DNA of 33,365 bases, from positions 1-33,365 of the forward strand of contig JAKEFC010000128.1 of the NCBI GenBank assembly GCA_022616235.1, given 5' to 3'. Below are positions 82 through 19,415 of this stretch, piece by piece. The notes beneath the pieces are model-generated. The model was given only the letters and a program-made list of their open reading frames with translations, searched no databases and was not told where the DNA came from. The translations under genes and the position numbers were made by a program. Source of the DNA: Planctomycetota bacterium (GTDB lineage Bacteria; Planctomycetota; UBA8108; UBA1146; JAKEFC01). The number at the start of each line of letters is the position of its first letter. Position 1 is the stretch's first letter.

Positions 82-1125
82 CTAGCGCGCCGGCACGTGG
101 ATCTGCTTCCCGATCGACAACCGATCCGGATCGAGGCCCGGATTCGCGGCGCGAATCTCGGTCCAGCGCGCGCCATCGGAGAGCAAGCGCTCCGCGATGG
201 CGTAGAGGGAATCCCCCTCCGCGATCGTGTACAGGCGATAGCCGGCCATTTCGGCTGGCTTTTCGGCCGTCTTGCCCGCGCTCATCGATGCTTCCCGGAG
301 CGCCGGGGCGGCCACGGCCGCGCTCGCTTCCGGCGGCGCAGGAATCGTGATGGTATTTCCGACGCGTAGTTCGTTCCCCTCGCCGAGCGTGGGGTTCGCT
401 TTCCGAATCTCCTCGAAGAGCGCGCCGTTTCCGTAGTACTGCTTCGCGATCTTCCAGAGGCTGTCGCCAGGCTCGATCTTGTGCTTCTTGGGATAACTGG
501 CCGCATCCCCTCGCGGCTCGAGCGACGCGCTCCCCGGCGCCGCGGTCGAATCGACCGCCGGCTTCATTCCCGTCCCGGACGGCAGCGGGCCCAAGGCGCT
601 CGTAGCCGCCGAGTCCGTGCTGGCGGAACTGCCTTGCGCCGCATGCGGCGTCCTCGCGTCGAAGTTGCTCGCGATCGGAACGCCGCTCGAGGCAGCCGGC
701 GAAGCGCCGGCCTCGCGCGCAGCGCTACTAGGCAAATCGAGCGCCCCGCCTGCGCCTGCGGCACCTGGGTGTCCTGCGCCGGCGAGGTTCGAATCGGCGC
801 CCACCGGATCTTGGAGGCGCGGCCGCGAAAACGTGGTGTCCCTGCCATCCACGTACGGCGAATTGGTGCTCGCACCGCCCGCAAGAGACGCCGCCCCGTC
901 GCCGAGCGTGCCTCGCTGCGCGGAATCCAGGCGCCCTGTAGTTTGGGACCCTGCGCTCGGGGACCCCATTCCCGGCTGCCTGTAGCGCTTCGCTTCGCGC
1001 GCGGATTCGCGGGTTTGATCTTCCTTCGAGCGGCCCCTCGTGCCATCGCTATCGAGGAATTTCGCGGCGAGGATGACGCCGAGAATTAGTAGAACGACCA
1101 GACCGATCTTCGTGCCGTTGCCCAT
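82..1125 (-). CDS. Membrane-anchored protein with two C-terminal LysM domains
   Basis: Start chosen at MGNGTKIGLVVLLILGVILAAKFL (TM anchor) behind the SD GGAGGGGTAAG. LysM repeats: KHKIEPGDSLWKIAKQYYGNGALFEEIRKANP... and YTIAEGDSLYAIAERLLSDGARWTEIRAANPGL... Confidence 0.85.
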   Translation of the reverse strand: MGNGTKIGLVVLLILGVILAAKFLDSDGTRGRSKEDQTRESAREAKRYRQPGMGSPSAGSQTTGRLDSAQRGTLGDGAASLAGGASTNSPYVDGRDTTFSRPRLQDPVGADSNLAGAGHPGAAGAGGALDLPSSAAREAGASPAASSGVPIASNFDARTPHAAQGSSASTDSAATSALGPLPSGTGMKPAVDSTAAPGSASLEPRGDAASYPKKHKIEPGDSLWKIAKQYYGNGALFEEIRKANPTLGEGNELRVGNTITIPAPPEASAAVAAPALREASMSAGKTAEKPAEMAGYRLYTIAEGDSLYAIAERLLSDGARWTEIRAANPGLDPDRLSIGKQIHVPAR

Positions 1126-1352
1126 CTTACCCCTCCACTTACCCCTCGACGGGAGTGGACTCGGCGTGCGGGCGGGCGTGGACCCGCTCGGCGTCCGCTC
1201 CATCATTGGGCCACCGCCTAACCGAGGACGCTCCCTTGCGAAGCGGCCTCACAAAACGGGTAAAACGCCGGATTTCCCGGCGACGCGTGCGCTCCGGAGA
1301 TCGAAGCAGCAGGGAAGCGTGCGCCCTTTCCCCCGAAGATTTCCCCGGGCGT

Positions 1353-15495: not shown

Positions 15496-16491
15496 TCAGC
15501 TCCACGCCCCGCACTCCGCGCGGACGAGCGCCGCGAGCGCCGCGACCCAGCGCGGCGAATCGTTGACGCAGGGCACGAGGTGGAGCGCCTTGCCGCCCGC
15601 GGCGCGAAACGCGCGCGCCCCTTCGTGGCCGATCTCGTCGATCGTCTCGAGGCAGTCGGCGGCGAAGCCCGGGCAGATCACCGCGACCTCTCCGCGCTCC
15701 TCCGCCGCCAAGCGCTCGAGCTCTTCCTTCAGATAGGGGCGGAGCCAGACCGTGCTGCCGAAGCGCGACTGGTAGGCGATGCTCCAGCGACGATCGCGAA
15801 GGCCGAGAGCGCGCGCGGCGGCAGCCGCCGTGCGCTCGCAGTGGCCGGGATAAGGATCGCCCTCGTCGGCGTGGCGCTCTGGCACGCCGTGAAAGGAGAA
15901 GATCACCCGCAGCGAGCCGAGGCGATCGCCGAGGTGCTCGCGCGCGCGGGCGGCGACGGCATCGATGTAGCCGCCGTCCTCGGGAAAGGGCGCCAAGAAG
16001 CGGAGCGCGGGCCAGACACGCCGCTTCGCGAAGTGCGCGAACACGGCGTCGTGGATCGAGGCGGTCGTGGCGGAGGCGTACTGCGGAAAGAGCGGCGCGA
16101 TGAGGACGCGCGCGCAGCCGCGCGCCGCCAAATCATCGAGCGCGGCGCCGAGGCGCGGCTCTCCGTAGCGCATGCCGAGCAGCACGTGGAATTCCGCGCC
16201 GAGCGCGGCGCCGAGCCGCTCCGCGAGGGAGCGCGAGAAGACGGCGAGCGGCGAGCCGGCGTCGGTCCAGATCCGCCGGTACATGCGCGCGGAGCGGGCG
16301 GGGCGAAAGGGCAGGATCACCGCTTCGAGGAGCAGGCGGCGCGCGAGCGAGCCCATCTCGAGGACGCGCGGGTCGCCGAGGAATTCGCGGAGGAACGGGC
16401 GCAGCGCGCGCGCGGTCGGCGCGTCCGGCGTGCCCAATTGGACCAGGACGACGCCGATCCCGCGTGACTCCCTCCCCGCGCCATCCACCAT
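15496..16491 (-). CDS. hemH: Ferrochelatase
   Basis: GVVLVQLGTPDAPT, LLGMRYGEPRL, APLFPQYASATTAS, IFSFHGVPERHADEGDPYPGHC, YQSRFG, CPGFAADCLETIDEIG. Confidence 0.96.
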   Translation of the reverse strand: MVDGAGRESRGIGVVLVQLGTPDAPTARALRPFLREFLGDPRVLEMGSLARRLLLEAVILPFRPARSARMYRRIWTDAGSPLAVFSRSLAERLGAALGAEFHVLLGMRYGEPRLGAALDDLAARGCARVLIAPLFPQYASATTASIHDAVFAHFAKRRVWPALRFLAPFPEDGGYIDAVAARAREHLGDRLGSLRVIFSFHGVPERHADEGDPYPGHCERTAAAAARALGLRDRRWSIAYQSRFGSTVWLRPYLKEELERLAAEERGEVAVICPGFAADCLETIDEIGHEGARAFRAAGGKALHLVPCVNDSPRWVAALAALVRAECGAWS

Positions 16492-17919
16492 CTATTTCAG
16501 GGACAGCTTCATCGTATAGCTCTTCCACGCATACTCGAACGCCGTCATGTCGATCTTCGCCCAGGTGGCCGCATACGCTTCGTCGATCGACCTCCCCTTG
16601 CGGATCTCCTTGAAGTAATTGCAGAAGGTCTCGCGATAGGTGGAGAAACCGCTCTCGAAGCAGAAGTAGACGATGGACCAAGCCATCGCGTAGTTGATCC
16701 CGGCGGTCTCGGGACCGTACATCTCGCGCTGCGACATGCGCATGAGATCGCTCGGCTTCGGGCAGACTCCGGCCTGGATCGCCTTCTTGATGTACTCCAC
16801 GCGCCAGGCGCTCGGCCGCATCTGCATCGTGTCGCGCCCGCCGCTCCGCTCGTAGTGCGCGCCGCTGAAGTAGTCGCCGAGCCCCTCGTTGAACCACTGC
16901 GGCGCCTTGCCCGTGACCTCGTCGAGGTACTGGTGTAGCCCCTCGTGGTAGAGGACGAGGATCGTGTCCTCCATCTTGTCGTATTGGAAGAGATTCAACG
17001 TGCGCAGCATCGGCGAGTAGTGGCCCCCCGCGGACTGCGGCCCGCCCGCGGCCTGGTAGGCTGCCCTGCTCTCGTGCACCAGGATCACGAACTTGCGCGC
17101 GGTGTCCGCGATGTCCGGAAACGCCTTGTCGTAGAGGCGCCGGATCAATTCCGCGTGCCTGCCGATCTCGTCGGCGAACTCTTGCGACACCGGCGTCTTG
17201 ACGATGTAATTCTCCGTCTCGCTCGTGTAGGTCTTTTCCCAGGCGGGGCCCTTGCGGACCTGCTGCAGCTCTTTCAAGAAGCGCTCCGCGTAGCGGTTGT
17301 CGCACTGTTGCGCTCGTTCGAGATCCTTTGCCGACTCATCGTACCGATCGAGCCGCATCAGGGCCGCGCCGCGCGAAAACAGCGCATCTCCGTACTCGGG
17401 GTAGATCGCCAGCGCTTTCTCGCTGTTCGCGACAGCGCTCGCGTAGTCGTTCGCGAGCCAAAGATCGACTTCCGCGGCCAATCCATGCGCCTCGTAGAAC
17501 TTCGGGTTCAGCGCGATTGCGTTCCCGAGCGCCTTACGCGCCTTCTTTTCGTCGCCGAATGTGTAGTAAAGGCGCGCGAGGTGATAGTCCGGGAGCGCGC
17601 TCTCCTTGACCTTCGTACGCGCCTTTTTCAGGCGGCTCTCGACACGCAAGATCTCTTCCGCGTCCGCGCCGCTGCTGAGGATTTTCTCCAATGGACGGAT
17701 CGCATCCCGCAAGGCATCGCGCTTCTTGTCGTCGAGCGACTGCGGAATCGTGAGATTGTCGACCGGCGGCTTCTTCTCAGCTTCACCGTCCTCTTCGGCG
17801 GCTACGACGGTAGCGATGAACAACGGCCGCGCGAGCGCGGCGGCCGCCGCGACGAAGCACGCGATCACCATGAGCACGACCCAATTTACCTTCATGGCTG
17901 CCTTCATATTCGCCCTCAT
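16492..17919 (-). CDS. TPR protein with peptidase-MA/DUF1570-like gluzincin domain, exported
   Basis: Signal anchor, TPR-like repeats, then LVLYHEGLHQYLDEVTGKAPQWFNEGLGDYFSG (HExxH plus downstream NEG). Stop abuts the hemH start (TAGATG). Confidence 0.85.
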   Translation of the reverse strand: MRANMKAAMKVNWVVLMVIACFVAAAAALARPLFIATVVAAEEDGEAEKKPPVDNLTIPQSLDDKKRDALRDAIRPLEKILSSGADAEEILRVESRLKKARTKVKESALPDYHLARLYYTFGDEKKARKALGNAIALNPKFYEAHGLAAEVDLWLANDYASAVANSEKALAIYPEYGDALFSRGAALMRLDRYDESAKDLERAQQCDNRYAERFLKELQQVRKGPAWEKTYTSETENYIVKTPVSQEFADEIGRHAELIRRLYDKAFPDIADTARKFVILVHESRAAYQAAGGPQSAGGHYSPMLRTLNLFQYDKMEDTILVLYHEGLHQYLDEVTGKAPQWFNEGLGDYFSGAHYERSGGRDTMQMRPSAWRVEYIKKAIQAGVCPKPSDLMRMSQREMYGPETAGINYAMAWSIVYFCFESGFSTYRETFCNYFKEIRKGRSIDEAYAATWAKIDMTAFEYAWKSYTMKLSLK

Positions 17920-17999
17920 ATTTGCCTCTCCCTTTCGCGCGTCAAGTTAACCGCCGCCGAGTTCTTCCGCCACCGTTCACCCCTCCCCGCCGACCGGGC

Positions 18000-19415
18000 C
18001 TATTTGCCCGCGGCCGTCAGCTTCGGAAGCTCATCGGCGAGGTATTTCTTCCAGTCGTTCACGAAGCGCGCCGCGTCGAGCTTGCCGAAGCTCGCTTGGT
18101 GGGCGGCGTCCACCGACTTCCCCTTCTTCAGCGCCCCGTAGTAGCCCTCGAGCGCCTTCTTGTACTTCGCGTGGCCCCCCTGCTGGCAGAAGAACACGAT
18201 CGACCAGCTCTCGGAGCTGGAGAGCACGGGGTCCGTATCCAAGTCGCGCTGATTCATCTTCATCAGCGTCTCGAAGTCGATGAAGTTCGCGTTGCGAATC
18301 GCCTGCACGATCGACGCGGGCGCTCCGCGCACCGGTTGGACCCAGAGGTCCTTGTCATCGATCAGCTCGAGGAAGGCGGGCTCCATGAATCGCTGTACGC
18401 CGAGGAGCAGCCACGGCGGATGGCCTTCTCCGAAGTGACGGTGAAAGACGAATGCGGCGACCGCGCCCTTCAAGGACGGCACTAGCCTCTCGAAGAGGTC
18501 CGTGTTCGCGATCTTCACGCGGTCGAACACGGGGGAGTAATGGCCGCCTCCTCGCATCGCGCCCCCCGCGATGACGTATTCCTTCGAACTCGTGTAGACG
18601 TAGATGTCGCACTTCGCACCCTCGACCGCCGCATCGGGAAAGATCCGCCTGAGGAGGCGGAGACATCGCTCCGCCGCGTCGCCGACCTTCGCGGCGATCT
18701 CCGCCGATACCCCGGTGCGAACGGTGAAATGCTCCGTTTCCGCGACGTGCGTCGCCGCCCAACTGGCGCCGTGCTCGTAATCATCCAGCTCCTCGAGCAG
18801 CGCCGCCCTGAATTCGGTCGCTTCCAACTCGTGCGCGTGCTCGAGCAGTTTGCGCGCTTCGGGAATACGGCGCGCCTCGAGCAAGTGCAGGATCTGCCCA
18901 TCGAGCGCGGGCGGATAATCCGCGGCGAGCGCGAGCGCCTTCTCGAAGTGCGCGAGCGCCGACTTCCCATCGCCGAGCCGCTTGCACACCTCTCCAAGCT
19001 TCGCGAACGCCTCGTGAAACTCGGGGAGGAGCTGGACCGCCTCCTCCAATTCCTTGCGAGCCTTCGCCAATTCGCGCAAATGCGCATACGCGAGCCCGAG
19101 GTAGTAGTTCGTGAGGGGCACGGCGGCCTTCGGTTTGACCGAGGCGAGGACGGCCGCCGCGGCTTCCATCTCCTTCCCCGCGCTGTTCGCCTCTTCGGCA
19201 CGGCGAAACTGATCGATCGCGTCGCGGAGCAGGTCCGCTTTGGAGTCCTCCAAGTCCGCCGGTATCTTGAGATGGTCCGGCCACGAGTTTCCTTTGGGCG
19301 GCGCGGGGCTCTCTTCCGCTCCCCACGCCCCCCAAAGGAACATCGTGGCCGCTCCTCCGGCGAGGCACGCCCAGATGACGACGAGGCGCGCGCTCTTCGT
19401 ACTGCTTCGCTCCAT
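18000..19415 (-). CDS. TPR protein paralogous to 16492..17919, with degenerate peptidase-MA-like domain
   Basis: Same layout and C-terminus (SWSIVFFCQQGGHAKYKKALEGYYGALKKGKSVDAAHQASFGKLDAARFVNDWKKYL). Motif region reads FVFHRHFGEGHPPWLLLGVQRFM. SD GGGAGGGG before ATG 19415. Confidence 0.85.
   Translation of the reverse strand: MERSSTKSARLVVIWACLAGGAATMFLWGAWGAEESPAPPKGNSWPDHLKIPADLEDSKADLLRDAIDQFRRAEEANSAGKEMEAAAAVLASVKPKAAVPLTNYYLGLAYAHLRELAKARKELEEAVQLLPEFHEAFAKLGEVCKRLGDGKSALAHFEKALALAADYPPALDGQILHLLEARRIPEARKLLEHAHELEATEFRAALLEELDDYEHGASWAATHVAETEHFTVRTGVSAEIAAKVGDAAERCLRLLRRIFPDAAVEGAKCDIYVYTSSKEYVIAGGAMRGGGHYSPVFDRVKIANTDLFERLVPSLKGAVAAFVFHRHFGEGHPPWLLLGVQRFMEPAFLELIDDKDLWVQPVRGAPASIVQAIRNANFIDFETLMKMNQRDLDTDPVLSSSESWSIVFFCQQGGHAKYKKALEGYYGALKKGKSVDAAHQASFGKLDAARFVNDWKKYLADELPKLTAAGK

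Follow-up and report, generated by a model that had tools for sequence, protein, structure and literature searches.

Peptidase pairs composed of a homologous active and inactive partner are known from the M16B family, where they include the alpha and beta subunits of the mitochondrial processing peptidase and the bacterial proteins SPH2681/SPH2682, TTHA1264/TTHA1265 and AlbF/AlbE (PMC12731061, PMC11266112). For TTHA1264/1265 the partner is encoded by the adjoining gene, and active/inactive pairs specified by neighbouring genes are an established arrangement in bacterial M16B (PMC12731061). Pseudoenzymes may account for up to 10% of an enzyme family, and in the pseudopeptidases CPXM1, CPXM2 and AEBP1 the fold is kept and binding functions are retained after loss of catalytic or substrate-binding residues (PMC11266112).

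The two genes analyzed here, P0001 and P0002, resemble the M16B pairs in being neighbours that encode homologous proteins, one with and one without an active site. M16B enzymes, in contrast, have an inverted HxxEH motif and a clamshell fold, and show no sequence relation to P0001 or P0002; the HxxEH motif is absent from P0001, which carries HExxH, and the present pair is known from its genes, any dimer being putative. P0002 is likewise similar to CPXM1/2 and AEBP1 in what it has kept and lost, but those are animal proteins, whereas P0002-type copies are bacterial, TPR-linked, and appear to have lost the site several times independently. Among known groups, the TPR-containing DUF1570 (PF07607) subfamily of Planctomycetota includes P0001, which scores above the family cut-off, while P0002 falls outside the Pfam model. 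To our knowledge, DUF1570 has no assigned function. Among the open papers searched, PMC3101246 alone mentions the domain, and our literature search found no description of a DUF1570-type family in a pseudopeptidase role. Since neighbouring-gene pairs are known in M16B and pseudopeptidases may make up to about a tenth of a family, P0001 and P0002 are of a known kind, in a family not found described in that role.

Two adjoining TPR paralogues upstream of hemH

The window, by which we mean the whole 33,365-nucleotide stretch analyzed (contig JAKEFC010000128.1), comes from an incomplete Planctomycetota metagenome-assembled genome of 3.1 Mb in 290 contigs, estimated to be 79.9% complete. On its minus strand the transcriptional order is P0002 (18000–19415; 471 aa), P0001 (16492–17919; 475 aa) and hemH, encoding ferrochelatase (15496–16491; PF00762, 319.8 bits; TIGR00109, 238.5 bits). 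P0002 and P0001 are separated by 80 bp (17920–17999), and the P0001 stop and hemH start abut directly. Both paralogues are intact genes with a purine-rich, ribosome-binding-like sequence ahead of the ATG, that of P0001 (GGGAGAGG) lying in the 80-bp gap, and the GC3 of P0002 (0.85) is the same as that of neighbouring genes. A scan for promoters and terminators gave nothing useful. The window also encodes two proteins that look exported and have LysM as their C-terminal domain, one divergent from P0002 (19571–20743, plus strand; domain found by Pfam) and one at 82–1206 (minus strand; domain recognized by eye).

A preliminary description had presented the two genes as exported TPR paralogues with a homologous C-terminal domain, and BLASTP bears out the paralogy with an end-to-end alignment in which 143 of 466 positions (31%) are identical (E 3e-56). 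The proteins have a common architecture, consisting of an N-terminal hydrophobic, signal-like segment, TPR repeats and a DUF1570-like gluzincin domain. P0001 passes the Pfam thresholds for DUF1570 (31.6 bits against a cut-off of 22) and TPR_2, and P0002 passes that for TPR_2 only, with no PF07607 match at the gathering cut-off. The peptidase-MA assignment made in the preliminary description differs in one detail: for Peptidase_MA_2 (PF13485) P0001 scores 13.6 bits against a cut-off of 32.4, and P0002 is likewise below threshold. Even with P0002 left out of the profile for the P0001-type domain, the P0002 domain scores 142.9 bits against it, and 21 of 23 aligned members have a DUF1570 match at E 0.01. 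Judged by pairwise and profile comparison, P0002 is a homologue that lies outside the Pfam model.

The AlphaFold comparison suggested in the preliminary description gave a concordant result. With pLDDT values of 87.7 (P0001) and 84.4 (P0002), the two models agree in the order of secondary-structure elements within the C-terminal domain, including the long helix that bears HExxH in P0001; the models were built from one common alignment, and their agreement is supportive and not independent. Foldseek searches with both full-length models matched TPR structures only and are therefore uninformative on the catalytic domain, and no solved structure was matched when the P0001 domain served as a sequence query.

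Loss of the zinc site in P0002

Site residues were compared in a 23-sequence alignment that includes 21 relatives. P0001 carries HEGLH (residues 325–329; 16933–16947, minus strand), the zinc and catalytic motif, followed by WFNEG (residues 342–346; 16882–16896), in which E345 is the likely third ligand; this combination of HExxH and a downstream Glu, as in gluzincins, is invariant in the 21 relatives. In the same columns P0002 has GAVAA (residues 317–321; 18453–18467) and WLLLG (residues 335–339; 18399–18413), in line with the preliminary description, which saw a zinc site only in the downstream copy. All nine of H325, E326, H329, N344, E345, D349, R373, Y401 and Y410 of P0001 are gone from P0002, among them N344, D349, R373, Y401 and Y410, which are present in 21/21 relatives. 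Retained in P0002 (P0001 numbering) are L114, A127, E143, E257, G299, W342, G346, W414, Y435, the Phe of the F453 column and W465. The segment FHRHFGEGHPPW, originally proposed as the P0002 counterpart of the motif, sits in this alignment 7 residues beyond GAVAA (G317–A321). An alternative alignment pairs its H-R with the H-E of HExxH, and under either alignment the catalytic Glu and third ligand are missing, so the claim of site loss stands.

The loss is confined to one part of the protein. Among 65 columns near-invariant in the 21 relatives, P0002 keeps 5/25 within residues 323–411, a region picked after viewing the alignment, compared with 30/40 elsewhere (Fisher p 2.6e-5). Mean identities to the 21 relatives tell the same story: P0002 and P0001 are comparable in the TPR part (0.26 and 0.25) and the C-terminus (0.33 and 0.35), and diverge in the strand-rich part (0.28 and 0.42) and above all in the catalytic segment (0.15 and 0.43). 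Usually conservation is highest in the catalytic part; P0002 shows the reverse, as a pseudoenzyme should. A homologous predicted fold, lost catalytic residues and an intact gene, all attributes of a pseudopeptidase, are found in P0002. The catalytic/pseudo-catalytic duplication put forward in the preliminary description is accordingly well supported, with one fold, one intact site, one site wholly lost, and a loss limited to the catalytic segment of a gene that has its own ribosome-binding-like sequence. Our preferred reading, to which we assign a probability of roughly 0.6, is that P0002 is a maintained pseudopeptidase, predicted to act by binding, encoded beside an exported zinc peptidase of DUF1570 type, P0001.

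Recurrent site loss and the arrangement of degenerate copies

HExxH is kept in 96 of 100 family members sampled from relatives. The four copies that lack it all have long open frames, and their site remnants differ (HQLTLKW/WMSQG, YEGVYLY/WLLVG, RSIACQG/WFGSG and YYGAFLQ/WFSAG). A further two degenerate copies, C217 and C77, come from the window's own genome; they share 60% identity, and their closest relatives in other genomes have retained HExxH. C217 (L114 810–2024, plus strand) has FQGFMQF in place of HExxH; C77 (L115 10170–10661, minus strand) is truncated, has WFRLG, and lacks HExxH. Together they represent at least one more independent site loss in this genome. Another candidate pair, C251 (L116 3119–4273) and C276 (L117, near its end), was rejected as a degenerate copy: the two have terminal sequence in common, the C251 half ends right after HEYLDNIPT, and they look like contig-end halves of a single intact-type P0001 paralogue.

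Further degenerate copies were found in G066, where the first His is lost (RECCH), in G036, and in G078, whose copy is the partner, at 46% identity, of the degenerate copy in G054, which belongs to another genus of the same family. A tree of 150 rows was computed with the catalytic columns left out, by a quick method and with no bootstrap; on it the 10 rows lacking HExxH imply no fewer than 7 state changes, and well-supported branches force 6 of these. The G054 and G078 copies group together, as do those of G066 and G036 (SH-aLRT 91 and 98), and two HExxH-lacking lineages thus extend across genera or families. By NG86, and near saturation, omega is 0.32 (0.19–0.51) for C217/C77 and 0.60 (0.48–0.73) for the degenerate G054/G078 pair, compared with 0.38 for the active pair from the same two genomes; selection on the degenerate G054/G078 copies appears relaxed, though omega is below 1. 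As a copy present in two genera of one family, this one (L272, G054:C107; L290, G078:C12) is the best candidate in the family for a conserved pseudopeptidase. Zinc-site loss recurs in the family, and P0002 is a real pseudoenzyme, though not one without precedent.

How degenerate copies are arranged bears on whether P0002 has anything to do with P0001. It could be a maintained pseudopeptidase that acts independently, serving for example simply as a TPR scaffold or as a protein that binds at the surface, its position being a consequence of tandem duplication only. The AU test neither demonstrates nor rejects a sister relationship between P0002 and P0001 (p-AU 0.305), among degenerate copies in other genomes for which the flanking genes were read only one adjoins an intact copy, and about 5 kb around the G054 degenerate copy is free of other family members, all of which is compatible with independence. 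On the other hand, P0002 and P0001 are adjacent on one strand, 80 bp apart, and the same arrangement occurs in G039, where three consecutive genes of the same strand belong to the family (L268 1901–7780, G039:C98), two with HExxH and the third degenerate (YEGVYLY, WLLVG). The G039 genes are of an unrelated subfamily and provide an independent case of adjoining intact and degenerate copies. We regard an independent role for P0002 as a credible alternative that falls short of an even chance.

Maintenance or decay of P0002

A different possibility is that P0002 is a relaxed duplicate heading for loss, its frame open only through recent decay or through co-transcription with a needed gene. P0002 was seen in one metagenome-assembled genome only. 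No orthologue was found in 28 other genomes of the class, all from outside its own taxonomic family, among 392 genomes of the phylum, or in a scan of genome contigs with a search pattern made to include P0002 residues; P0002 queries match the very loci that P0001 queries match every time, at lower identity. In trees P0002 clusters with P0001, its orthologues in the class and the C251 paralogue (support 96/97), on a branch that measures 2.2–3.3 changes per column where the median is near 0.7, which makes it 3–4 times faster than its relatives. The pairwise omega of P0001 and P0002 is 0.61 with dS near-saturated, and leaves room for near-neutral evolution of part of P0002.

Against decay, P0002 retains 471 codons without a stop, and a neutral gene at 31% identity should hold several: when neutral decay of the P0001 gene was simulated to 60% or 50% identity, none of 200 runs remained stop-free under either base composition. 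In the TPR and C-terminal parts its conservation equals that of the active copy, and the loss is restricted to the catalytic segment. Because these parts match relatives as well as those of P0001 do, and only the catalytic segment has collapsed, P0002 looks, in its sequence, like a maintained pseudopeptidase and not a decaying gene. The persistence of degenerate copies elsewhere, including C217/C77 and G054/G078 with the omegas given above and the two lineages that span genera or families, also argues for maintenance, and we consider the relaxed-duplicate explanation unlikely.

The histidine cluster FHRHFGEGH (residues 324–332; 18420–18446, minus strand), cited in the preliminary description, lies where the former zinc helix ends and could be due to chance or be a different metal site. 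If the latter, P0002 would not be a pseudoenzyme, having re-modelled a metal or other active site from, for example, HRHFGEGH (residues 325–332), in which H325, H327, E330 and H332 fall in or just past the helix that bears HExxH in the active copy. However, D349, R373, Y401 and Y410, further conserved polar residues in this segment, are missing too, no aligned relative and no other degenerate copy has the cluster, and those other copies lost the site in unrelated ways. A re-modelled site therefore seems improbable, more so than decay.

The hemH junction

Translational coupling of the active copy to hemH had also been suggested. The TAGATG junction exists, and hemH has no evident ribosome-binding sequence ahead of it, an arrangement that fits coupling and is no proof of it. 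The wider link is weaker: a family member (P0001-, P0002- or C217-like) lies within about 1.5 kb of hemH in 0/20 class genomes that have hemH, and no other gene of the window, hemH included, occurs at the loci of P0001 relatives. The junction is best read as a local operon arrangement. That P0002, P0001 and hemH work together as one unit of haem metabolism, as the junction might suggest, is very improbable given this lack of association, and exported proteins need not share a pathway with a cytoplasmic or inner-membrane ferrochelatase.

Discussion

Under the preferred reading of P0002 as a maintained, binding pseudopeptidase, P0001 would be an exported TPR-gluzincin of DUF1570 type with a single predicted zinc, bound by H325, H329 and E345, and E326 would act as the base. 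P0002 would have been born by duplication within the P0001 clade and would then have lost the whole catalytic apparatus, keeping the fold, TPR array and C-terminal helices. Presumably made from the same transcript as P0001, it may work as a binding protein, either with its TPRs engaging substrate or partner proteins or by associating with P0001 itself as a non-catalytic subunit. A putative active/pseudo complex of the two proteins is plausible. A far broader generalization would be that in Planctomycetota exported TPR-gluzincins have repeatedly given rise to copies that serve as dedicated partners without catalysis, encoded next to an active copy, producing putative cell-surface heteromers across the phylum in which the pseudopeptidase selects substrates or restrains the protease; we offer this as speculation that is probably too sweeping.

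The recurrence of zinc-site loss in the family is what is new here, the coupling to hemH being local only. Pseudopeptidases are best studied in animals, and a bacterial family with at least six or seven separate zinc-site changes, some of them apparently conserved across genera, would supply natural replicates. P0001 and P0002 are both small enough to express and test, and the family opens the question of why a protease domain is kept once catalysis is gone.
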